Assembly (NCBI GenBank): GCA_017965445.1 | Contig: JAGCPZ010000027.1 | Location: forward strand, 1 to 64,000 | Direction of reading: 5' to 3' | Length of the DNA: 64,000 bases | DNA from: Fibrobacter sp. | Lineage (GTDB): Bacteria > Fibrobacterota > Fibrobacteria > Fibrobacterales > Fibrobacteraceae | Part shown: piece by piece, positions 47,705 through 63,210 of the stretch | Layout of the letters: the number at the start of each line of letters is the position of its first letter | Numbering within the stretch: the first letter of the stretch is position 1 | The notes under the pieces: model-generated | Told to the model about the DNA's origin: nothing | The model's database searches: none | The model's input: only the letters and a program-made list of their open reading frames with translations | Program-made: the position numbers and the translations under genes

Positions 47705-49657
47705 ATGTTTTTGGAAAAAATATTTGCAGCATTAACATTATTTGCAGTTGCAAACGCAATGGCTGCAGACCAACAATTTACGCCGCAATATGTCGATTTA
47801 GGACTGCCTTCGGGCACGCTATGGGCGACCTCGAATGTTGGCGCAGACAAACCCGAAGGACTTGGCGACTATTTCGCCTGGGGCGAGACCAACCCCAAAA
47901 CCGTCTATGAATGGTCGTCGTACGCATACATGAACGATGCTAAAATGGATGGCAGAGATGGCGCGAAAAAAGGCCCCGACTGGTTCAATGTCAACAAATA
48001 CACTTTTGACGACCAACTGAAGGGCGCTATATGGTATTCGGGAGTAACATTCGTCGGCGACAACAAGAAAAATCTCGAAGCTATTGACGATGTAGCTGCT
48101 GCCAACTGGGGCGGGGACTGGGCTATGCCTACTGCCGATGATTGGAACGAGCTGATAAGCAACAGCTACATTGCACATACCGACAATTACAGTGGCAAAA
48201 GTGGCTGGATTGTGTATAAGGCTAAAGCCGAAGCCGACAAAGGAAAAACCGATGGCACTCCATCGGCCTCTTATTCTACCGCCGACACGCATATTTTCCT
48301 TCCTGCCGCCGGCTACAGGAACGCCTCAGCCAGTATTCAAAACGCGTCGGAATGCAGTTACTGGTCGTCATCGTTATCGGAATACAACACACAGAATGCA
48401 CAATCTTTTGAAATTGACAGTAGAAAAGGTGCTCGTGTAGAAATAACCTCTAGCCGTGATTATGGAAAGACTGTTCGTCCGGTTTGCCCGCGTTCGGGCA
48501 ATACCAATGGTAACGACGCCGTTGATTTGGGTTTGCCAAGCGGCAAAATGTGGGCAACGAGCAATGTTGGTGCAAAAGCGCCGCAGGCCGCGGGTGACTA
48601 TTACATGTGGGGTATGACCACCAAATCAAAGACATATGCTTTTACCGCATACAAGCATATGCTACCGGGCTGGGAAAAAATTTTGAAAAAAGAAAATGTA
48701 AACAAATTCAAAAATTACATATTCATAAATAAATATCAGATTCCCGACGAAAACAACAGCGGAGGGTCGTGGTTCAAATGGAACGGCAACTCGTGGCAGT
48801 TCCTTGGCGATGGCAAGAAAACGCTTGATGCGGCCGACGATGCCGCCGCAGCCAACTGGGGCGGTAAATGGCGTATGCCCACACAAAAAGATTGGGAGGA
48901 ACTGAATAAAAACTGCTACGGCGTATGGACCGAAAATTATAACGGTACAGGCGTGAACGGCTGGGTGTTTTACAAAGCAAAAACAAAAGCCAACAAAAAC
49001 AAGCGTGCATATAAAGGCCAAACGCCATTGGCGTCATATTCTCTGTCCGACACGCATATTTTCCTGCCCGCTTCAGGCAAATGGCAGGACAATATCAGCG
49101 ATAGGGGCAAGAAATGTTACTATTGGTTATCGAATCTTGGCCGCACAGAGTCGCGCGGAGCAAATGGTATCAGTATCGGTCCCAAATCGTCTGATTTTGC
49201 AGGAGAGGGAGGCGGCTCACGCTTTATGGGATACACGGTTCGCCCGGTACTCGACAAGAGCAACGCCAACACGCCCATTCCGCAAGTAAAAGCACCAAAA
49301 TATTACAAGATAACCATAGTTCAACCTGAAAATGGTACGATAGAATCGAAAAACGAGAATCTGGACCTTTCGAAACCAGTTAAAGAGGGTACAAAGTTGA
49401 CGTTCTGGGCTCGTCCCGCCGCTGGATATTTGAAATACTCCGAAACTTGGAAAGGCACCCCCTGTGATGAAAATGGAACATTCATAGTTACAGGCGACGC
49501 CACAGTGACTTGTAAGTTCAAACCGAAAAATGCACCAGCTCAGACTGTGACAACCACCACAACAACGGCTGAAACAGAAAAAGCCACTGCAAGCGAAAAA
49601 ACGGAAACCACGAAAAAGAAGAAAAACGGCTTTTTCAGGTCGCTTCTCGGGAAATAG
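47705..49657 (+). CDS. Secreted protein with two FISUMP (TIGR02145) domains and a C-terminal beta-repeat
   Basis: 650 residues. Signal peptide 1-20 (ANAMAA). Two homologous domains, about 25-265 and 275-525, each opening YVDLGLPSGTLWATSNVG or VDLGLPSGKMWATSNVG and containing AANWGG-x-W-x-MPT and TVRPV at the end. This is the F. succinogenes major paralogous domain, also common in Bacteroidales. Then a module (about 540-600) like InlB-type B repeats (ITIVQPENGTIE, YLKYSETWKGTPC). The Thr-rich, Lys-rich tail ends FFRSLLGK. Binding or adhesion is a guess; no catalytic motif seen. Wording such as YFAWGETNP is very Bacteroidales-like, so transfer is possible. AAGGAG 13 bp upstream. Confidence 0.85.
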   Translation: MFLEKIFAALTLFAVANAMAADQQFTPQYVDLGLPSGTLWATSNVGADKPEGLGDYFAWGETNPKTVYEWSSYAYMNDAKMDGRDGAKKGPDWFNVNKYTFDDQLKGAIWYSGVTFVGDNKKNLEAIDDVAAANWGGDWAMPTADDWNELISNSYIAHTDNYSGKSGWIVYKAKAEADKGKTDGTPSASYSTADTHIFLPAAGYRNASASIQNASECSYWSSSLSEYNTQNAQSFEIDSRKGARVEITSSRDYGKTVRPVCPRSGNTNGNDAVDLGLPSGKMWATSNVGAKAPQAAGDYYMWGMTTKSKTYAFTAYKHMLPGWEKILKKENVNKFKNYIFINKYQIPDENNSGGSWFKWNGNSWQFLGDGKKTLDAADDAAAANWGGKWRMPTQKDWEELNKNCYGVWTENYNGTGVNGWVFYKAKTKANKNKRAYKGQTPLASYSLSDTHIFLPASGKWQDNISDRGKKCYYWLSNLGRTESRGANGISIGPKSSDFAGEGGGSRFMGYTVRPVLDKSNANTPIPQVKAPKYYKITIVQPENGTIESKNENLDLSKPVKEGTKLTFWARPAAGYLKYSETWKGTPCDENGTFIVTGDATVTCKFKPKNAPAQTVTTTTTTAETEKATASEKTETTKKKKNGFFRSLLGK

Positions 49658-49792: not shown

Positions 49793-51241
49793 ATGATTTG
49801 TTGGGGCTCAAGAAAAAAAGCAGGTTTCACCCTCATGGAGCTTATGGTCTATATAGCTCTACTTGGGGGTATTGTCCTCATTGCAGGTCAGGCTTTCAGC
49901 GATAGCACAAGAATGCGAGTCCGTACGCAGAACATGTTGCAGGCTTCCGAAGTTGCGGAGAGTGTCGCCAATCTAATCAAGGCCGATGTTGCGCAGACTG
50001 GTGCAAAAAGTTCGATGGAAGATGAGGTGTCTGGTCTAGGAGCCCAATACGGAAACAAATTCAGCGGCATCGACATGGATATGTATATGGATCCGAGCAA
50101 CGGGGATTCATCTTCTTTTACGGTAATCAACAGGAACGGTTTCGACAGTCTCACCATTCGTCGTTTACGTTTCGATGATTGCGGCTTTTTCTTGGCCAAA
50201 GAACAAATTGCCTGGTATGTTCGAAATGGAACGTTACGGCGTAAATGCAAATTTTTACCTAATGTAATAGTGCATATTCCTGAAGGTGGCGGAGACCCCG
50301 TTGTTGAAAACGTTACTTTACCCGTTCATGGAGCTCAATGCAAATCGACAATTCCCGCAGATGACCCGTGCAACGACTCCACAGAAGTAGAAATTGCAGA
50401 AGGCGTGAGTACATTTACGGTTATACCGGGAAAACCCGGTGTCGTGGGAGATGATATCCAGCTTTTCCCGGCAGCAGGTGTAACGGAGTTTAGGCTTGTT
50501 GGTCGAAATGACGGGGATCGCGAACTGCCCGTTATTTATAACGAATTCAGCGAGGTCCACAAGGGCGGAAACAAGCAGACCGTGGGCAATTTCTACCAGA
50601 ATTATGACCATGTTACTGAAACGGTGAAATCAGAAGCAGAACGGAAGTTCAATGAAGTTATCGCCATCCGCAATGAAACGACGACAGAAACTTCTTGGGA
50701 AGCATTATGCAGCAGAGAAGGCAACCACTTCACGTTCGAGCCAGGCGAACTCTACGAAATTTCGTTCGAAGTATCTTCCCCGGATGTAAATACGGATAAA
50801 AGCAAATTGTTCATACCTGGTCAAGACCATATGTCTGTTGGCTTTAGAGACAGAGAAACAGGCGACTTGCCCAAAGTAAACGATGTCGTGCAGGTGAACG
50901 ACTTTACGTTCTTCCCGCCGATGGGTTTACAAGGAGAAGGGAGCGGACCGGGCCGTTCCATGCGATTCTCTGTAGCAAAAAAAGTTGAAAACGCGTGCCT
51001 TTCATTTACCTTTGCCTGTTATTCTCCACTCGTTTCTCAGGGAAAGATTTCTATTACAAACTTAAGACTTACCAAGATTCCTAGTGCAAACTACAATTTT
51101 GAAGCTTACGATTTTGAATCAAACAAGCACGACAAGCAAAACGTGAAGGCGTTTCTGTTAAAACTGGACATTAAACGCAATGGCGAATCAGGACATGTTG
51201 AAGTGGTTATTCCGGCGCCGAGCAACGGTCCCCACGATTAG
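49793..51241 (+). CDS. PilW-like minor pilin / type IV pilus assembly protein
   Basis: 482 residues. Class III (prepilin) signal KKAGFTLMELMVYIALLGGIVLIAGQAF: cleavage after Gly11, mature protein starts with Phe, Glu at position 5 (Glu16). The rest has no catalytic motif. The region of about 105-240 shows NGFDSLTIRRLRFDDCGFFL and CKFLPNVIVHIP, and the C-terminal 180 residues form a probable carbohydrate-binding-like beta-sandwich (FTFEPGELYEISFEVSS; RFSVAKKVENACLSFTF). This is much larger than usual PilW (about 300). ATG 49793 chosen for AGAGGA six bp upstream. Ten bp before the giant PilX-like gene, clearly the same operon. Confidence 0.82.
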   Translation: MICWGSRKKAGFTLMELMVYIALLGGIVLIAGQAFSDSTRMRVRTQNMLQASEVAESVANLIKADVAQTGAKSSMEDEVSGLGAQYGNKFSGIDMDMYMDPSNGDSSSFTVINRNGFDSLTIRRLRFDDCGFFLAKEQIAWYVRNGTLRRKCKFLPNVIVHIPEGGGDPVVENVTLPVHGAQCKSTIPADDPCNDSTEVEIAEGVSTFTVIPGKPGVVGDDIQLFPAAGVTEFRLVGRNDGDRELPVIYNEFSEVHKGGNKQTVGNFYQNYDHVTETVKSEAERKFNEVIAIRNETTTETSWEALCSREGNHFTFEPGELYEISFEVSSPDVNTDKSKLFIPGQDHMSVGFRDRETGDLPKVNDVVQVNDFTFFPPMGLQGEGSGPGRSMRFSVAKKVENACLSFTFACYSPLVSQGKISITNLRLTKIPSANYNFEAYDFESNKHDKQNVKAFLLKLDIKRNGESGHVEVVIPAPSNGPHD

Positions 51242-51251
51242 GAGGAATTTT

Positions 51252-54200
51252 ATGCATTTAAACTGCAAAAATCTTTCGTCTTTCGTCTGTAGCAAGCCAC
51301 GTAGTGGTCTTGCGTCCTCTCATCTAAAAACCGGTGTGTCACTTGTCACCGTGCTGCTGTTTATGCTCGTCGCGACAATTGCCGCGACCGCTACGTACAA
51401 GTTGCTCTCAAGCGGAGGCCTTTCTAGCGCAAGCAGAATGAAACAACAAGAGGCCCGCCAGAGCGCCCTTGCCGGTATTGAAAACACCCGTATGTGGATG
51501 ACGTTCCACGCCAATGATGTCGGTGCGCTGGTGAAGGCGTTCATCGAAGGCGGCAACAAGCCCATCAACCTCGATGCCAGAGTACGTCGCTGGCAACGCG
51601 CCAAGCAGGATTACCACGTATGGCTTACGGGCGTGAACACCGAAAGAAGTACGTATAAATTGAAAATTCTGTCATCTGGCGTATCACAGGTTCTTGGAAA
51701 TACAAATAATGGGGACGTTACCGTCGCCACTTGGAACGAAAGCGCCATTTTCAACGTAGATGGCTTGTACCAAGTGAAACTCTTTCATGAAGAAAAAGTC
51801 GAAGAAGTTGTCGCGTCCATCCCGTTCAAGTACAATTATTTTGGCGGTTCCACGCAATCTCAAGGACATATAAAGGCTTATTCCCTTTTGATTAATGGTG
51901 ATTTGTTCGGTTCCAACCCTCCATATACAGAAGAAAACCTCATTGTTACAGGAGACGTTTATATAACAGGTAACTCTGTCGGTGCTGGAGGTACCGCTTG
52001 TATTGGAGGCAATATCAGTGCAGATAACGGTGTGTTCGGTAATGACTTCTATGTTGCTGGAAATGCGACAAAAGGATTTACTTTCCCGGCCGCATCTGAA
52101 GCGGCAGGTCTCAGCAGAGCGTACCTTACGGGTAATGTATATATCGAAGGTAATCTTGCCCCACCCGATCCCGGAGACCAGAAATTTCAAAAGAATCTAA
52201 CTCTGAATGGTATATGGACAACAAATCTTGGCGCTCACGAATCCCAAGTGGCCGGAAACCTTTGCCTTGGTCAAAATGCTCAAGTTGTTATAGACAAGAA
52301 AAACGCTGTCCGTAAATTTAAGGTCGGTGGAAATATCTGGGCTGAATCAACCTACCCTGTATGGATACAAAACGGCGAAAAGAACGACGCCAATTACGAC
52401 CACATCATCCTTGGGGATAAAACTGATTCTAGAATTTACATCAAAAGTGCCCATTCAACAGCTGATTATGTGACTCTCGTGAACAACAGGACTTTTGTCG
52501 AATCTAAAGACTATTACAGAGGGACCGCCAGCAATGCGGGTATGGGCGCACAAGCTAGATGGGATGACAAAACGACCAAAGTTTATAAAGATCTCCCTGC
52601 TCACTTGAGGAATAAAACAGACGCCTACTATCTTTACTATTATGACGGGCCGGGGCAGGATGTCGATTTCATCGTGTCCCGTGCGGCTGGCGGCTGGGGT
52701 TTCGGCTCGACGTATTATGCGAGCTATTATGTTGAAAATCAGCCGTTTTATACGACCGGTGGTGGTGGGTATGGTTTTGGTTATCAAGCCGCAGGCAACC
52801 ATCTTCTGAATTACAATGGAAAACCAACAGGTTCACCGTATTGTAAGGCTTCTCCCGATAAATGGCGCCCTGAATGCGATGTCACCCCGTGGTTCCAATC
52901 CAAAGGTACCGTAACAAGAAACTTCCCGGCCGAAAGGAATTTTGAATGTGCCGAATCCGTCAAGGCTCATTGCGATTTGGTTTGGAGAAAAACACCGGGT
53001 GAAGGGTGCCCCCATGCAGGTCAATCTACAGTGAATAGTCAAGGACTTCGCAGGGGAAACGCCGATTACAAGGTAGATGACATTCTCGTCACCGCCTATG
53101 ATAAATTCGAAAAATATGCAAACAGAGGTTGTCGCGATGTTACCCAATGGGGCAGTACCATGCCCGATAGGTTGAACAGATGCTATCGAGATAACACAAG
53201 CAACCCGCAGCGCGCAAAGGACAGCCTCTATAACGGTTATCAAGTTGTGAAAGTTCGCAAAAATTGGAAGGCCGATCCGAATACTCCTTTGAAAGGTAAA
53301 TTCATCATCATCGTAACTGAGCCCATGGGACAGCAGAGCCTGCCGCCGACCACATCGGATTCTTACGTATTTCTCTATTTGAAGGAGGGTACAGGGCATG
53401 GGGGTGGAAACGCCTATACGCTCCAGCCGGCAGTCAATAACGCTACGTATAATTACTTTATTTACACCCCTAAAGATATTGATGGGATAATGTTCAACGA
53501 CGCAGTCTTTAGCGGTTCCATTTATGCCGAAGCGGCGACTTGCGCGAAAGTTGGCGATATCAAGACCCGCCAAATGGATTTCAACGAAGCCTTGATGACC
53601 GACTTGACGGCAAATGGTGTTGTTTGCCCTGCTTCTGTAGGGAAAGCCTCTTGCGGAGGCGCCGTTGCAAGTTCAAGCTCTACAGCAGGTTCTTCATCGT
53701 CAGGGGTTCCCGGTTCTGGTTCTAGTACAACGAATTCTGAATATGATTCCTTCTATATTTCGATGGCGCCGCAGTTGGGCGTGAGATTGGAATCCCAAGG
53801 CAAAAGTAAAGAGCCCCTTCCTGAAGCAGGCGGGAGCAACGTAACAGAACTCAACCCATCATTCATTGTGCTTCCGCGTATCATTTATCTGTCCAGTGAC
53901 CCCTTTGGTAGTTTGACGGATTACTACAACGTTCAGCCACTCAACGGCTCCACCTTGAAAAAATCGGAGGTGAACGTAACCTGTACAGGACCGGGGTCAG
54001 CAACCCTGCCCACATCGGGAAAACTCTATACACCGCCGACTAAACTCGCCAAGGGACACTATACCTGTACCGCCTCGGCTACAGGCTATTCTAGCGTTCC
54101 CTTCTGGGTCAATGTCGGCGACAGCACTCGTGCCATAAAAATGATATCTTTCACGCTAGAATCTCAAGAAATGGGCGCCAGCGAACAGAAAGACGTGTTA

Positions 54201-57200
54201 CTCAGCGTTCCTGCACTTGCAGAACCGCTTGTTGTCAACGCCTATTGCCCCGATGTCGATAATGAAGCCTGGGAGTATGCTTCTTTCGGAGCGGGCGTGA
54301 CACGCGAAGGCACGAATTGCACAATAAACCTTCCCGCAGGCCCGGCATCTACACCTATACTCGCTACGATAAAAACAAATAACGCCGTTGAAGGGACTAT
54401 GGTATTCCAGTTGCTCCCTGGCGAAGGTTACATTCCAGGCTCACCGAATGCGACCGAACTTTTCATCAAGTCCATCGCGCAACTGAACCGCAACGATGCA
54501 ACAACCGGCGATATCAGGAAATTCTGCGAAGACAACCGGGAAATGTGCCCTGATGGAAATCTCTCGGACTGGCCGGATTGCGAAGTTTCCATACCTTGGG
54601 TCGAACCCACAGGGACAAATTTCATCAATAAAGTCGCCAATACCTCATGGGCCATCATGGTCGGCAATTCGCAGCCGGTTACTCTAACCGAAGTTTCCAA
54701 TAGCGGTTGCGTAGTGATTATCCCTGAAGACAACAATTCCATAGAACACGTTCAAGGAAACTCCACCTACGATTTACGAGCAAGTGCCAAAGCCACAAAG
54801 AGAACGTTTACTGTAGGCTTCTCGGGTAACGTCGGTGGCAAGAATCCAACAATAAATGTTTACGCGTCTCGTGGCTCTGGCAATCAAATTATTAAAACAT
54901 GCAGGTATAATGACGCTTCGACAAGTACCGATACATCTTCGACAAGGACGTGCACGGTTTCTGTTTTCAGGGGCGAAAACGTGACCGTCGTGTTGGAAGA
55001 CAATAACGATGCTGAAAAATTCAGTTTCTGGAGATGTTCCGGTCCGAGTTGCCCGACAACAGACGCCACAATCACAAGCAAAACCTACGATTCGTTCTCC
55101 ATCACCGATGACGCTACCGAATTGACGGCCGTTTTTGGTGAAGCGGATAAACATTGTTTCTTTGACGAATTCAAACGGGAATCAGTGGAATGCGATGCCA
55201 TAGAAACTGAATATTGTATTGACAAGTGCGATAACGACGCCACATCCGTGTGTACGGCAGCCGATGCGACCGGACTCTTTACAAACTCCAAGTGGCACCT
55301 GATATCCGGTATTCTTTCCCAGATTATCACGGGCTCAAGCGGCGAAATCCATATCGACAAGACCGTCATCAAGAAAAAGAAGCAATCGGCACGTGAACCC
55401 ATTGTCGTCATGAGCACGGTGAATGCGGGCATCGTGGGGACGCTTAAAGCTCTGATTAACGTTCCGAAAGCAACGTCCAGCTACGATAAATCCGCAGTGA
55501 ACATAAAGAAATCCGGGTTCATGCTCCGTGCAAACAAGTACGGCAACGATTACTTTATGTTGAACCTGTACGAAAATGGCAACGGAGAACTCGAAGCCCA
55601 GCTGACAAGGGGCTCGACAAGTCTGTCCAATACGTTGACGAACAATGACCATACGGTACGCGTATCCAATTCCAAAATGGTCATGGTAACCGCAGAAGTA
55701 ACGACGCAAAACACCATCAAAGTGCGCGCCAACGTCGGAAACTACTATGGTTCCGCGACGGAATACGAATGTGAATTCGCCCTTTCTGATTTCAACAACG
55801 CCCTTGCCGATGTGGCTCATGAATATGTCGGGTTTAGCCTCGCCGACCCGAACTTCAAGATTTACGGAATCGGCTGGAAGAGCGGAACCTACAATTCGGA
55901 ATGCCACGATACTTACCCCACGGTCAAATGCTCGTTTGCCGCTGTCGCAACAGATGGAGTCATCAAGACGGGTGTGGACGTGAAACCTTGGGTTGGACAT
56001 TCTGGCTGGTTCGATTCTAAAGGTTGCACGCCGCTCTATTATTATAACGGCGACGATGCTTGCCTTGGCGGGTCTTGCGATATTTATAATTTCTCGGAAA
56101 GCGGAATCGGTGCTCACGGCTATACCGACGATAACGGAGTCGAATACAAGACCGCAAAAGCCTGGCTCGGAAACTGCACTAACACTGCGGATGAAGATGT
56201 AGCCTGGGGCATAGACGCTGAATCGCAGAGAGCTCATTGCGGAGCCTTCTGGACAGGCAAATTCAGCGAATGTTCTGCCCATCAAGACCTGTTCAGTGGT
56301 TTTAAGCCTATAAACTACGGCTTGGAAGAATCTATCGTTTTCGATAGCAAACAGAATTTCAGGGCCGCAACGCTTCACATTGCGCTCGAAAACACAGACA
56401 ACAGCGAAGTCGAAATTTGGCTTGTCAGCGAAAGTGACAACTGGGGCGACAGCGACCACGAAAGCCATTCCGTCAAAATGCACGGAAATAGCGGAACCTT
56501 CGATGTCATGCAGGAATTTGCTACAGGTTCAAGCGGTTTCGACCCTGAAAACGTAAAGCAGATAGTGCTGAAAAACCACGGCACGTCAAGCGCTACGCTA
56601 ACCTCGATTACAAGCTCTTGCGAAAATGCCATCGGTATAAACTACTGCACAGCTACCTTTGATGGCGACAAATGGAACGTGATGACTCAAGTAACGAACA
56701 AAAACCTGATTGTGAGTCAGCAAGTTACAGCCACTGTCGAAGATGCTGATCATACACTTAATGTAACCAAGCAAGCAACCGGCGATGACGGAATCGCATG
56801 GAACGGCAATATTGCCGTAGTAAGCATCCCGGACAATCCTTATGAATGTTGCCAAGACAAATCATATAGGTTCAATGCGAAAATTGTGGGTACGACAAAT
56901 GGACAAGAAGAAACCAAGGAATGCGAGGTTTCTCCCAGAAAAATTGGTAAAATCGGCGTCAACTGTTCGTCAGTTGGAAGTATTGCGAGCGGAGCCAGAT
57001 TCCCGACATTCAATATCGATTTCAATGGATGTCCAGGAGCAGGCTGCGGCTATGAAGTTTATATAGATAACGAAAAATTTGCAGAGGGTATCGAAAAAAC
57101 GGCTGCCCGCCACTCGGCAAATCAAAGCCAAGAATGCAATGTTACCGCGGGTTGTGAACATACATATAAAGTAGTAAGCACGTCAAATCCCGAACTTTTC

Positions 57201-59006
57201 GATGAGTGTACTGCTAATTTCAAAGTTTTGAGAAAAGAAGAAGAAGTTCCGCCGACGGTCACATGCGGAATTTCTACACGTTCAGACGCATTCTCTGTGG
57301 ATCCCGTCTTTACAGGAAACAGACTTTATTTCTTGGCCCGCAATACAGAAAGTGTCGATAAAACATTCAATGTGACACTGAAACAAGAAAATACTGAATT
57401 AGGAACTGCAACTTTACAAAAATGGTCTCAAATCACGAACGTGAAGGACTTGGGCACGGGTCTCGCAAAGGGTACGCATACCTACAGTCTCTATGTCGGT
57501 GACGAAAAAGTTTGCGATGCCAGTGTTACGGTGAACGACATCTCGGGCGCCTGCACCATTGGCGGGAAACCTTATGCAGGGCAACAAATATCGGTCAATG
57601 TTTCCGGTGTAAACGCCAACACGCAGTTTACATGGACGTTCAACAACAGTTCTAAAACAATAGATTGCGGTACAGCAAACTGCTGGAACAATACAATAAA
57701 CGCTCCTACAACTCCAGGCACGTATGCATACTCCGTGACAAAGGGAGCGAACAAGATATGCGAAGGAAGTGTAACAATAGCGCCGATACTTACATGCTCG
57801 GTGACACCGACGACAGTGAATAAAGGAGGCGAGTACACGTTTACGGCAAGCAAGGCGGCCGAGGTAAATAATTGTTGGAATTGCATATATAAATTCGATA
57901 CAGGGGCATCAGAAAATTACTACAATAATTCCAATATTAGTGTCACTAAAACCGCTGCATCTAATGGCTCAAAAACGTTGGAATTTAGCTGCGATTGCGA
58001 TAATAACTCTCATCCAACATGTACGACTCCTTTGACAGTAGCGTTGACTGCACCTTCATTTAGTTGCCAGACGAATTTGAAAGCTAATACAACTGGATCT
58101 GATAATGTAAAGATAACGCCGCAAAATGTAGTTGGCTGTGACGAGGGTGGAAGTTACTGTCATTATACAATCACGGGAACAGGTGTAACGGGAAATAGTT
58201 ATACTGGAGGTGCATTGCCTGCGTTTACTGAATCAGGTAAATCGGACGGAGCTACTGAAACGTATGAAGTTTCTTTGACAAATTCTGTAGGTACAACCAA
58301 GCATGATTGTGATGTAGAGTTTACTGCTGGTCCTACTTGTAATTGTACTTGTGGTGACTGTAATAATATCGTTGTTGGGTCAAATGCTGGTGTGTCTCAA
58401 AACAGTAATAACTCTAATGTTTGTGCGTTTGGTACGACAATAACAAATGTCAATGCTAATGGACGGTCAATTAAAATTAATGGCACAGAAGTATCCTCTT
58501 ATTGCTTAAATTGGAATGGTGGAGATAATCCATGTGCAGTTGTTTACAGTTCTATTGCAAAGATAGATGGTGGATATTATATGGAAATACCTCCTGGTGA
58601 CTGGATAAACGCTACTGTTTCGGGAGCGACAAGTAATCCGTGTGGAGGAAGTGGTCCGACTCCATCGTCAAGCAACAGTGCTGCAGAATCAAGTTCCAGC
58701 GGTGCGACGGCATTCCCCTGTAATGATGGAAACTCTACGCAAATGTATCCGCACAACCCTGCAGAAGATGTGCAAATGGCTGCTAATAGTTGTGTTAAAT
58801 ATTCTGCGGGTTCCTCAGGCAATTTGCAAATCGGATGCTGGTGGGCCCCTGAAACACCTGTTACCGTGAACATAAAAAAGTGTGACGGAACTACTACAAC
58901 CATGTCTCATTCATGCGGTGGTTGGCAAGGAGTTGATGTGGGCAATAATTGCACTGTCTATGCTTATCCTGAGAAGACTATTAAATGGGATTTAAATTTC
59001 TGGTAG
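51252..59006 (+). CDS. Giant PilX-like pilus adhesin
   Basis: 2584 residues. N-terminus HLKTGVSLVTVLLFMLVATIAATATYKLL (about 24-52) fits PilX-type minor pilins: Gly before a long hydrophobic helix, no Glu5. Then a Gly/Asn-rich beta-helix-like region (about 215-365; GNVYIEGNL, CIGGNISADNG), a PilX-body region to about 800, a Ser linker (805-829), beta-rich domains (830-1295), a LamG/concanavalin-like domain (about 1300-1555), another beta-sandwich (1556-1795), several Cys-paired Ig-like repeats (1796-2370), a CNCTCGDCN module, a second Ser linker (2470-2485) and a 100-residue Cys-rich end. Probably a fused tip adhesin taking the role of PilX plus PilY1. From about 57,880 the DNA is more AT-rich than before. 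AGGAGG 7 bp before the ATG. Confidence 0.85.
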   Translation: MHLNCKNLSSFVCSKPRSGLASSHLKTGVSLVTVLLFMLVATIAATATYKLLSSGGLSSASRMKQQEARQSALAGIENTRMWMTFHANDVGALVKAFIEGGNKPINLDARVRRWQRAKQDYHVWLTGVNTERSTYKLKILSSGVSQVLGNTNNGDVTVATWNESAIFNVDGLYQVKLFHEEKVEEVVASIPFKYNYFGGSTQSQGHIKAYSLLINGDLFGSNPPYTEENLIVTGDVYITGNSVGAGGTACIGGNISADNGVFGNDFYVAGNATKGFTFPAASEAAGLSRAYLTGNVYIEGNLAPPDPGDQKFQKNLTLNGIWTTNLGAHESQVAGNLCLGQNAQVVIDKKNAVRKFKVGGNIWAESTYPVWIQNGEKNDANYDHIILGDKTDSRIYIKSAHSTADYVTLVNNRTFVESKDYYRGTASNAGMGAQARWDDKTTKVYKDLPAHLRNKTDAYYLYYYDGPGQDVDFIVSRAAGGWGFGSTYYASYYVENQPFYTTGGGGYGFGYQAAGNHLLNYNGKPTGSPYCKASPDKWRPECDVTPWFQSKGTVTRNFPAERNFECAESVKAHCDLVWRKTPGEGCPHAGQSTVNSQGLRRGNADYKVDDILVTAYDKFEKYANRGCRDVTQWGSTMPDRLNRCYRDNTSNPQRAKDSLYNGYQVVKVRKNWKADPNTPLKGKFIIIVTEPMGQQSLPPTTSDSYVFLYLKEGTGHGGGNAYTLQPAVNNATYNYFIYTPKDIDGIMFNDAVFSGSIYAEAATCAKVGDIKTRQMDFNEALMTDLTANGVVCPASVGKASCGGAVASSSSTAGSSSSGVPGSGSSTTNSEYDSFYISMAPQLGVRLESQGKSKEPLPEAGGSNVTELNPSFIVLPRIIYLSSDPFGSLTDYYNVQPLNGSTLKKSEVNVTCTGPGSATLPTSGKLYTPPTKLAKGHYTCTASATGYSSVPFWVNVGDSTRAIKMISFTLESQEMGASEQKDVLLSVPALAEPLVVNAYCPDVDNEAWEYASFGAGVTREGTNCTINLPAGPASTPILATIKTNNAVEGTMVFQLLPGEGYIPGSPNATELFIKSIAQLNRNDATTGDIRKFCEDNREMCPDGNLSDWPDCEVSIPWVEPTGTNFINKVANTSWAIMVGNSQPVTLTEVSNSGCVVIIPEDNNSIEHVQGNSTYDLRASAKATKRTFTVGFSGNVGGKNPTINVYASRGSGNQIIKTCRYNDASTSTDTSSTRTCTVSVFRGENVTVVLEDNNDAEKFSFWRCSGPSCPTTDATITSKTYDSFSITDDATELTAVFGEADKHCFFDEFKRESVECDAIETEYCIDKCDNDATSVCTAADATGLFTNSKWHLISGILSQIITGSSGEIHIDKTVIKKKKQSAREPIVVMSTVNAGIVGTLKALINVPKATSSYDKSAVNIKKSGFMLRANKYGNDYFMLNLYENGNGELEAQLTRGSTSLSNTLTNNDHTVRVSNSKMVMVTAEVTTQNTIKVRANVGNYYGSATEYECEFALSDFNNALADVAHEYVGFSLADPNFKIYGIGWKSGTYNSECHDTYPTVKCSFAAVATDGVIKTGVDVKPWVGHSGWFDSKGCTPLYYYNGDDACLGGSCDIYNFSESGIGAHGYTDDNGVEYKTAKAWLGNCTNTADEDVAWGIDAESQRAHCGAFWTGKFSECSAHQDLFSGFKPINYGLEESIVFDSKQNFRAATLHIALENTDNSEVEIWLVSESDNWGDSDHESHSVKMHGNSGTFDVMQEFATGSSGFDPENVKQIVLKNHGTSSATLTSITSSCENAIGINYCTATFDGDKWNVMTQVTNKNLIVSQQVTATVEDADHTLNVTKQATGDDGIAWNGNIAVVSIPDNPYECCQDKSYRFNAKIVGTTNGQEETKECEVSPRKIGKIGVNCSSVGSIASGARFPTFNIDFNGCPGAGCGYEVYIDNEKFAEGIEKTAARHSANQSQECNVTAGCEHTYKVVSTSNPELFDECTANFKVLRKEEEVPPTVTCGISTRSDAFSVDPVFTGNRLYFLARNTESVDKTFNVTLKQENTELGTATLQKWSQITNVKDLGTGLAKGTHTYSLYVGDEKVCDASVTVNDISGACTIGGKPYAGQQISVNVSGVNANTQFTWTFNNSSKTIDCGTANCWNNTINAPTTPGTYAYSVTKGANKICEGSVTIAPILTCSVTPTTVNKGGEYTFTASKAAEVNNCWNCIYKFDTGASENYYNNSNISVTKTAASNGSKTLEFSCDCDNNSHPTCTTPLTVALTAPSFSCQTNLKANTTGSDNVKITPQNVVGCDEGGSYCHYTITGTGVTGNSYTGGALPAFTESGKSDGATETYEVSLTNSVGTTKHDCDVEFTAGPTCNCTCGDCNNIVVGSNAGVSQNSNNSNVCAFGTTITNVNANGRSIKINGTEVSSYCLNWNGGDNPCAVVYSSIAKIDGGYYMEIPPGDWINATVSGATSNPCGGSGPTPSSSNSAAESSSSGATAFPCNDGNSTQMYPHNPAEDVQMAANSCVKYSAGSSGNLQIGCWWAPETPVTVNIKKCDGTTTTMSHSCGGWQGVDVGNNCTVYAYPEKTIKWDLNFW

Positions 59007-59167: not shown

Positions 59168-59295
59168 TTACTTGTTCGCAAGTGCTGCAAGCATCGCCTT
59201 CGCCTCGGCAATCTTTTCGGGAGAAACACCCAGTTTCTCGAAGACACTGATGGCGTTGGACTCACCTTTTGCCTCCCCAGCATGGTGGTAAATAG
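59168..59295 (-). pseudogene. C-terminal fragment of an Rpn-family protein (tail 1)
   Basis: Only the last 35 or so codons are recognisable: AKGESNAISVFEKLGVSP, then EKIAEAKAMLAALANK. This is the kind of tail found on Fibrobacter Rpn/PD-(D/E)XK family transposase-nucleases. The upstream part of the same open frame is a shadow of the next fragment in another frame. No start codon or ribosome site. A terminator hairpin separates it from fragment 2. Confidence 0.55.
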
Positions 59296-59307
59296 AATCT
59301 TTTAAGT

Positions 59308-59335
59308 AAAAGCTCCTCCTGTCGGGGAGCTTTTT
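59308..59335. terminator. Hairpin AAAAGCTCC/GGGAGCTTTTT
   Basis: AAAAGCTCC, TCCTGTC, GGGGAGCTTTTT; A and T runs on both sides make it able to work in either direction. Lies between two Rpn-family fragments. Confidence 0.65.
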
Positions 59336-59346
59336 CGTATAAATTG

Positions 59347-59378
59347 AAAGCCACCAGTTAATGTGAACTGGTGGCTTT
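59347..59378 (-). terminator. Perfect 13-bp stem after Rpn fragment 2
   Basis: AAAGCCACCAGTT, six bases, AACTGGTGGCTTT. On the minus strand it follows the stop of the fragment at 59397, so that fragment still keeps the terminator of a once complete gene. Confidence 0.75.
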
Positions 59379-59396
59379 TGCAAAAGTATTTTTGTC

Positions 59397-59737
59397 TTAT
59401 TTCGCAGTGAACGCAGCTTGCGAATCACGCAGTTCAAGGACCTTTTCCAAGGAAAGGTGCGAGTACTTGACGATTTCCTCGATAGGCTTATTGTCCGCGA
59501 GCATGTCGAGAGCCGTTTCAATACGTTCCTGTTCACGACCTTCCGCACGAGCTTTTTCACGGGCTCGTATTTTGTACAATGCCAGACGATCCAATTCCTC
59601 TTCAGTCCATACCATATCGTTTGCCTGATCCATGATGAGCCTTTCCGAAGCGCGATTCACCAGAAGTCTGCGGTCCTCGGCAGTCTGTAATTTGCCACGT
59701 AAGTATTCGCCAACTTGATGTGATTGCGCCTTTCGTC
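59397..59737 (-). pseudogene. C-terminal part of an Rpn/PD-(D/E)XK family gene (tail 2)
   Basis: About 110 codons remain: GEYLRGKLQTAEDRRLLVNRASERL, then EELDRLALYKIRAREKARAEG and ETALDMLADNKPIEEIVKYSHLSLEKVLELRD (interrupted here). The tail matches that of the intact gene at 62153 (LDMLADNEPLDKIMKYSHLPKEKVLEL). The start of the open frame, upstream to 59909, is only a shadow of fragment 3. The nuclease domain is missing, so it is inactive. Confidence 0.7.
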
Positions 59738-59745
59738 TTAAATGC

Positions 59746-60316
59746 CTATTTGATGGCGAGCATCGCTGAAATGACGTCGTCCGGGATGTTCTGCGAACGG
59801 AGATATTCGGCCCTCTGGCTGTCACGAGCGGCGTTCGCGGCCTCGTTTCTAGAGCGTTCTTTGGCTTCTGCTTTGAGCCAAATTTCGGCTTCAATCGCCT
59901 CACGTACATGGATGTCGTCTGACATTTGAGCCTCCATAGCTTTTAAAAAGTCCTGCTTCACGCGACTCACGCGCAAGCGTTCAATCGCATCCGAAAATAT
60001 CGGGTCGTCTGATTTCGGTAGGTCAACTACAATATACCTATTTTTCGAGAAACGTGGTTGAGACCCAGACATCGAGGCGGGATGGGTTCTTTTCGGGCAT
60101 GAATATGTCGATGGGCTTCTCAAATTCGTATTTGAGATCGATGATTTCATGATGATTGTCGAGACCAAGAACGCTGTTGAGTACGTCGCGAATCGTATCC
60201 TTGTCGTCCATTAGGATGCGGAATGTGTCGGCGTATTTGGGATGCAGGAATTGTTCCCCGTCGGCGTTAGTGACGATGTAGAAATCTTTTTTGGATTGCG
60301 TGTTATTTTCGGTCAT
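59746..60316 (-). pseudogene. Rpn/PD-(D/E)XK family gene with internal deletion and frameshift (copy 3)
   Basis: A once complete gene. The N-terminus (60038-60316, starting MTENNTQSKKDF with AAAGGAAAA upstream) has EQFLHPKYADTFRILMDDKDTIRDVLNSVLGLD and LDVWVSTTFLEK. It then hits a stop, and the homology resumes in a different frame with KNRYIVVDLPKSDDPIFSDAIERLRVSR and a tail ending QNIPDDVISAMLAIK (59746-60035). Compared with the intact copy about 100 central codons are gone, including most of the nuclease core. Homologous proteins promote recombination in E. coli (RpnA). Confidence 0.75.
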
Positions 60317-62152: not shown

Positions 62153-63151
62153 CTATTTGACTGTTTTGCAGGTTTTCGTCTTCTGCAATTCGAGCACCTT
62201 TTCTTTGGGCAGATGCGAATACTTCATGATTTTGTCAAGAGGCTCGTTGTCGGCAAGCATGTCAAGCGCTATTTCGGCGCTACGATTATAACGCCCGTAC
62301 TCAGCCCCCTTTTCAAAGCTTTCATCAATAGCGTCACTATACGCATAGAGAAAATCTTTCATATTAGCCTGCTTAATTAATAGTTCGTCACTTGCCGTAT
62401 CGCATTCAATTCGTCGGAGGGCATCCTCGAAAGTCGGATTGTCGAACTCGGGCAGGGAACTTGAAGAACCCGCATTTTTCAAGATATAGAGCCAGCGATC
62501 TTCGTCTGTTTCGAGGTTGTCTTTCGACTTGTTAAACTTGGTAAGGTCCACAATAATATACTTATTTTTCGTAGAAATGGGAATGCAACCTTCCTTGCCC
62601 ACACTAGACAAATTATAAAGACCAACTTCATCACGATAAACATTTCCCATAAACTGAACGGGATAGTCCATGATCCAAATGGAATAGATTTCCGGCAATG
62701 TGTAGCGGAATTTTTCTTTTTTCGAATCGGGAAGGTTCTGAAAGTCGATTTCCTTGTTGTAATCGTTCTTTGCACGTAGCAGCAAGAATGCGTTGTATAT
62801 CATCATTCTGTCAACATAGTCGTTCAACTTGAGCTTTTGCATTTCTACATCTATTCGCTTACCAGCCTTGGTTCGGGCGCCGATGTCGAACTTGACACGG
62901 TAGGGTTCTGGCAAATGAAAAAGTTCATCTTGTTGAACCGTATAAGTCAGGGACTCAATTGCATTTTCGCCTTCAAAATGCAGTATTGCGTTCAAAAAAT
63001 TCACAAGCGCATCCTCGCTGTCGAGCAGAGCCCTGAATGCTGGGTCGCATCTGGGATCTAGGTATTTTTGCCCCTCAAACTTTTTCCTGGCGCTTTCTGC
63101 GTCATTTCTGTGCTCGTATGTTTCGAACAGGCTTTCGTCTTCAATATTCAT
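62153..63151 (-). CDS. Rpn family / PD-(D/E)XK nuclease family transposase
   Basis: 332 residues, apparently intact. N-terminal nuclease-like domain: KYLDPRCDPAFRALLDSEDALVNFLNAIL, RVKFDIGARTKAGKRIDVEMQ (Asp and the xExQ pattern typical of PD-(D/E)XK), YDRMMIYNA-like YVDRMMIYNAFLLLRAK. Centre STKNKYIIVDLTKF and C-terminal ALDMLADNEPLDKIMKYSHLPKEKVLEL. RpnA-E of E. coli share this architecture and promote RecA-independent recombination; mobility here is not shown by any terminal repeats. Start at ATG 63151 with GGAGA upstream. Converges on the silent pilin copy. Confidence 0.85.
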   Translation of the reverse strand: MNIEDESLFETYEHRNDAESARKKFEGQKYLDPRCDPAFRALLDSEDALVNFLNAILHFEGENAIESLTYTVQQDELFHLPEPYRVKFDIGARTKAGKRIDVEMQKLKLNDYVDRMMIYNAFLLLRAKNDYNKEIDFQNLPDSKKEKFRYTLPEIYSIWIMDYPVQFMGNVYRDEVGLYNLSSVGKEGCIPISTKNKYIIVDLTKFNKSKDNLETDEDRWLYILKNAGSSSSLPEFDNPTFEDALRRIECDTASDELLIKQANMKDFLYAYSDAIDESFEKGAEYGRYNRSAEIALDMLADNEPLDKIMKYSHLPKEKVLELQKTKTCKTVK

Positions 63152-63210
63152 TTTAAAATCTCCATAGTGTTTATGTTCAACGAATGAAGAATTCTTCCAC
63201 ATTCATATAG

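Follow-up and report, generated by a model that had tools for sequence, protein, structure and literature searches.

The 64,000-nucleotide stretch of Fibrobacter sp. DNA analysed here (the window; contig C22 of a 2.76 Mb genome that is 72% complete) encodes a giant K subunit that is probably a PilY1-independent, tip-capping modular pilin of a type IVa H-I-J-K complex, one that would prime the pilus and present a long adhesin. In the accepted view of diderm type IVa pili the tip consists of HIJK minor pilins capped by PilY1; here the giant K probably does the job that falls to a separate PilY1 in other bacteria. A sequence-only reading had called a PilW-like gene followed by a giant one, and both are present (Table 1). 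It had further taken the giant for a PilX-type pilin fused to a multidomain adhesin, a fusion that might combine priming and adhesion. What stands of that reading is a minor pilin of the PilX/GspK class onto which a huge extension is grafted, in a PilY1-less system, so that priming and tip presentation are plausibly combined in one chain. The protein is not a PilX of about 200 aa joined to PilY1: the core is by itself about 780 aa long and includes a predicted beta-solenoid, the grafted part comprises the ~1,780 aa at the C-terminal end, and the PilY1 domain is absent.

Table 1. Features of the J-K locus, in positions of the window (aa, residues of the protein).
Feature	Position	Strand	Basis or remark
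J subunit, PilW/GspJ-type minor prepilin, 482 aa	49793..51241	+	ATG 49793; N_methyl above cut-off
Shine-Dalgarno AGGAGG of K	51240..51245	+	read directly from sequence
K subunit, giant PilX/GspK-class tip prepilin (predicted), 2,584 aa	51252..59006	+	ATG 51252; profile searches, relatives
Class III leader of K, 28 aa, ending ...HLKTG	51252..51335	+	sequence; PilD cleavage predicted between G28 and V29
K core, aa 29-805: prepilin helix followed by three antiparallel strands, a predicted beta-solenoid and an all-beta domain at the end	51336..53666	+	A1 alignment, AlphaFold
Ser-rich linker ASSSSTAGSSSSG, aa 806-818, core/added-part junction	53667..53705	+	sequence
Conserved beta-sandwich (Ig-like) domains, aa 838-1290	53763..55121	+	A3 alignment, model pLDDT 80, Foldseek Ig/cadherin-type arrays
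Conserved 13-14-strand beta-sandwich, aa 1290-1556, concanavalin-like by sequence pattern only	55119..55919	+	alignment, model strands
Best conserved added module, aa 1551-1806, invariant Cys/Trp/Gly motifs (CHDTYPTVKCSF...PWVG.S.WFD)	55902..56669	+	alignments
Roughly five Ig-like units with Cys, each of 80-97 aa, aa 1900-2360	56949..58331	+	sequence comparison
Distal module, aa 2361-2475, patchily common to giants	58332..58676	+	search of giants
Ser-rich linker SAAESSSSGATA, aa 2476-2487	58677..58712	+	sequence
Terminal module, aa 2488-2584, exchanged between lineages	58713..59003	+	end-to-end comparison
PilA-type major-pilin-like prepilin, 171 aa	60808..61323	+	1.8 kb downstream of K

The Shine-Dalgarno sequence of K overlaps the stop codon of J (TAG, 51239-51241), so the two genes are likely a co-translated operon. 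J has the cleavage region KKAG followed by FTLMELMVYIALLGG, matches Pfam N_methyl with E 8.7e-5, and is 37-65% identical to the J genes of relatives. It is enlarged by an inserted beta-rich domain that is conserved across all relatives, and may therefore be a second modular tip pilin; the J protein of one relative gave a sub-threshold match to CBM_4_9 (E 0.089). The gene immediately before the J-K pair, oriented the same way, encodes a 650-aa protein with two FISUMP domains (47705-49657), domains that form a mass family in Fibrobacter. Broken and intact frames at 59168-60168 and 62153-63202, between K and the PilA-type gene and beyond it, have a common ending (ALDMLADN.P...KYSHL..EKVLEL), which we take to be typical of PD-(D/E)XK (Rpn-type) transposase-like proteins.

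K has a leader with a Gly cleavage site and a hydrophobic helix (KTG, then VSLVTVLLFMLVATIAATATYKLL), and its predicted length after cleavage is about 2,556 aa. The cleavage-site Gly is conserved in 27 of the 27 copies read, and residue +5 of the mature protein, where the absence of Glu marks the subunit capping the HIJK complex (PMC10191384), is Thr in 19 of these giants, including the window copy, Ala in six, Val in two and Glu in none. J lies directly upstream of K in 26 of the 27, with I-J-K together in 12 and H-I-J-K in seven, all of these neighbour counts being lower bounds because some genes miss the simple motif. The order in relatives is a FimU/GspH-like, a PilV/GspI-like and a PilW/GspJ-like gene, and then the giant at the position of K. 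Only J and K stand together in the window; the H and I genes of the same genome are found at 92.9-94.0 kb of contig C46, and this genome also encodes one PilB-type and two PilT-type ATPases.

The PilX-like N-terminal helix noted in the sequence-only reading is confirmed through relatives of the giant, 18 of 24 aligned members matching PilX_N (PF14341; best E 3.2e-9). The window copy itself falls below the threshold; it is 66-67% identical to copies above it, and a 67% orthologue in genome G046 passes. In a set of 31 genomes, all but one of which are at least 95% complete, above-cut-off matches occurred in 14, every one in a giant frame of 2,194-2,817 aa, and three small frames (209-328 aa) reached PilX_N only at E 0.02-0.04. 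Scans of the whole giant against Pfam, NCBIfam and PDB sequences returned nothing above threshold. A match under a toxin-subunit name is due to chance (13 bits, E 0.06, where the cut-off is 199.5).

The sheer size of the protein might suggest a surface adhesin that a pilin-like helix anchors in the inner membrane or envelope and that is not built into a pilus. At 2,584 aa it lies far beyond any characterised pilin, being about three times as long as the largest modular pilin (860 aa) in a 2021 survey of more than 1,200 (PMC8179133), which required a recognisable N_methyl motif that is missing in these K subunits. However, the operon with H, I and J prepilins, the Gly cleavage site and non-Glu +5 residue in all copies, and the conservation of the core with K proteins of normal size all argue for incorporation into a filament, and we regard an envelope-held adhesin as very unlikely.

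The lack of PilY1, remarked on in the window by the sequence-only reading, extends to the genome and the phylum: the PilY1 beta-propeller family (PF05567) had no match in the same genome and none in 151 Fibrobacterota genomes. Controls were silent in the 151-genome set, and the PF05567 search was repeated on 392 genomes reaching other phyla, where it was positive in 33, none of them Fibrobacterota; it is these positives that make the negative result in Fibrobacterota informative. A PilY1 beta-propeller inside the giant was rejected as well, PF05567 being without a match there. Complete type IV pilus genes have been reported in the phylum (PMC4704652).

A second compact type IV filament set is present on contig C56 of the same genome (L060, 6100-11060). 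It comprises a secretin of 588 aa (PF00263, 3.7e-42), a 392-aa protein, small I- and J-like prepilins, and a K-like prepilin of 332 aa that has a short solenoid-like segment. The set probably forms a further type IV filament system, again one that lacks PilY1. Of the arrangement familiar elsewhere, a separate PilY1 with a PilX of its own, the genome thus offers a second K-like gene, beside a secretin, and no PilY1. This set also bears on the possibility that the giant sits at the tip of a pseudopilus for type II secretion, with the extension serving as a secretion adaptor and not as an adhesin. K helices are common to type II secretion systems and type IV pili, the genome has the secretin and second small K-like gene just described, and type II secretion is reported in the F. 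succinogenes genome paper (PMC3079729). Yet with its own K-like protein beside the secretin, the C56 set shows that a secretion system need not use the giant, and the J-K pair is near a PilA-type pilin, just as the H-I-J-K set at one related locus (L057) is flanked by PilA-type genes. The K proteins of type II secretion systems, moreover, are only about 300 aa long. A pseudopilus role for the giant is in our judgment quite unlikely.

The AlphaFold model of the core, built from 24 sequences (pLDDT 82), has helices, three antiparallel strands, solenoid-like short strands and an all-beta end, with less confidence in the pilin-like part (block pLDDT 40-90). The predicted solenoid-like strands are accompanied by weak Pfam matches of single members to Bactofilin and ice-binding-adhesive families. 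Foldseek placed ComZ of Thermus at rank 1, with three chains in the top ten, at a level that is not significant (E 0.3-1.9, prob 0.12) and hence a pointer to a ComZ-like fold, not proof of one. Of a pilin fold beyond the helix the model predicts three antiparallel strands, and ComZ matches at no better than E 0.3. A resemblance of the core to tapirins (Foldseek E 0.36 and 3.9) was too weak to retain.

In other Fibrobacterota families there are K proteins of 510-766 aa that match the core only. They align colinearly to profile positions 157-335 and then 551-710, and in the clearest cases end 15-40 aa past the last match, which is where the linker of the giant starts. By the standards of this phylum the core thus amounts to a K of ordinary full length, and the giant is pilin, not added part, up to about residue 805. 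To judge from the distribution of short and long forms, the C-terminal 700-2,400 residues would be an addition in Fibrobacterales. With short and giant forms of K in a series inside a single phylum, it becomes possible to trace how a tip adhesin evolved.

The added part had been described as more than 1700 residues of linker-separated beta domains; the size and all-beta character hold, and only two obvious Ser-rich linkers are found. With a pilin module, the Ser-rich linker that follows the core and an extra non-pilin part, K has the composition of a modular pilin. Residues 838-1806 are conserved throughout the genus and are predicted to form beta-sandwich domains, for which Foldseek returned Ig, cadherin and GH43 beta-sandwich proteins, including a GH43 beta-xylosidase with prob 1.0 somewhere in the model. 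The stretch at aa 1290-1556 looked right by eye for a concanavalin/LamG lectin, and GH43 Foldseek matches spoke for it as well; hhalign against Fibrobacter LamG_3 domains gave a probability of 0.1, and because this profile comparison failed, a lectin identity is not claimed. The best conserved module matches DUF3344 marginally (E 0.0012, below the Pfam cut-off), and among the Ig-like units only the neighbouring pairs 2/3 and 3/4 resemble each other more than shuffled sequences do. No domain of the extension matched a known binding family above cut-off, Pfam carbohydrate-binding modules included, and profile searches of the PDB with the giant alignments gave chance-level matches only.

We propose that prepilin peptidase would cleave the K helix, which would then pack with J, H and I. 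K, without Glu5, would cap the filament and, being assembled first, prime the pilus, as HIJK biology suggests by analogy. The ~780-aa core, with its pilin strands and beta-solenoid, would stay beside the pilin bundle, and the ~1,780-aa chain of beta domains would go through the secretin before the filament does, like beads on a flexible string, each domain being small enough for the secretin. The extension would finally be displayed beyond the tip, presumably as an adhesin whose terminal module can be exchanged.

Several known systems share parts of this design. PilX, GspK and PulK are likewise prepilins with a non-Glu +5 residue encoded last in an H-I-J-K set, and most relatives of the giant match PilX_N, but the known proteins are about 200-350 aa long, without the ~780-aa core and ~1,780-aa extension seen here. 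ComZ of Thermus thermophilus (PDB 6QVI, PMC6561018), a tip pilin resembling GspK, lacks Glu5 and carries a beta-solenoid between the last two strands of its pilin sheet; unlike the giant, this 554-aa DNA receptor has no long C-terminal extension. PilB and PilC of S. sanguinis (PMC8179133, PMC9934059) are pilins with C-terminal adhesive modules, Ig-like and concanavalin-like lectin in PilC, and are proposed to sit at the tip; they differ in being about 50 kDa, in having Glu5 and in not occupying the K position. PilC/PilY1 (PF05567) matches the inferred role, as a large modular tip adhesin with variable modules, yet is not a pilin and belongs to a beta-propeller family absent here and in all Fibrobacterota searched. 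The TadG/KilN tip minor pilins (PMC12075869) are large, bear variable C-terminal domains at the tip and, as with the giant K, come in several interchangeable sets per genome, although they belong to Tad (type IVc) pili with a different gene set. The modular pilins and the variable Tad tips together provide precedents for K acting as both primer and adhesin.

As for the ligand, plant fibre or another surface glycan appears most likely by analogy: work on F. succinogenes ties its type IV pilins to cellulose adhesion (PMC6851124), and type IV pili are connected with cellulose adhesion in Fibrobacter (PMC4704652, PMC6851124), which makes plant fibre a likely target of the giant K. The extension might instead bind mainly DNA or other non-carbohydrate targets, in competence or in attachment to other bacteria, in which case the tip-pilin part would stand. 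ComZ, the closest structural analogue of the core, is a DNA receptor, S. sanguinis PilB is a further precedent for non-carbohydrate binding, and the exchange of modules is in keeping with targets that diversify, whatever their kind. However, the function of ComZ rests on its solenoid and not on a long extension, and a cellulolytic habitat together with the reported role of pili in cellulose adhesion favours glycans, neither of which amounts to a test. We find a mainly non-carbohydrate target rather unlikely.

The far end of the extension is exchanged independently of the core. Two orthologues that are 66% identical to the window giant in core and middle are only 30-33% identical at the distal end, and their last 100 residues align with it at chance-level local scores (35-36). 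Conversely, the K protein at locus L050 is 42% identical in the core, yet 61 of its last 97 residues are identical (63%, score 345). The terminal 225 aa were matched in giant frames and in two frames of about 430-450 aa, and on these matches no link to cellulases is claimed. It is tempting to go further and suppose that Fibrobacteraceae swapped PilY1 for the giant K, that end modules are shuffled between loci, and that the resulting interchangeable tips for different plant-wall polymers, a set of them in each strain, constitute the primary fibre adhesin so far missing for the genus; we offer this as a speculation that we would not yet favour.

The giant K, carried by Fibrobacter of the rumen, is no single oddity; it is a family-wide, multi-copy trait of Fibrobacteraceae. 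A search with aa 1-833 found homologues in 58 of 61 same-genus genomes (29 of the 29 high-quality ones), mostly 1,700-3,100 aa long, often several per genome in tandem, and nearly all without internal stops, which argues that the giant frame is neither a chance product nor an assembly artefact. The closest orthologues of the window copy are 65-67% identical, and a search of its own genome for the conserved middle part found only this giant gene. Relatives in other Fibrobacterota, where the sequence-only reading had suggested a search for paralogues, are there too: the core profile (A1) reaches 110 of 168 genomes of the phylum, with short, core-only K proteins in other families. A scan of a genome collection yielded 75 loci, including one in the isolate F. 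intestinalis ATCC 43854, which has a giant K, and the named relatives are all Fibrobacter or Fibrobacteraceae/Fibrobacterales, except for giant-K fragments on three small contigs of 3.7-9.8 kb (L166, L184, L200) in metagenome-assembled genomes labelled Bacteroidales or Paludibacteraceae, which are probably mis-binned Fibrobacter contigs.

Our literature search found no paper describing minor pilins of Fibrobacter. Fibrobacter has to be attached to cellulose before it can digest it, and the giant K is a concrete, conserved and testable candidate for this first contact. That a family, and apparently a phylum, lacks PilY1 and has K subunits with as many as about 2,400 additional residues suggests more generally that the K position can become an adhesin. 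Other Fibrobacter frames of about 3,900-4,000 aa (L202, L211, L213) carry Laminin_G_3 domains.
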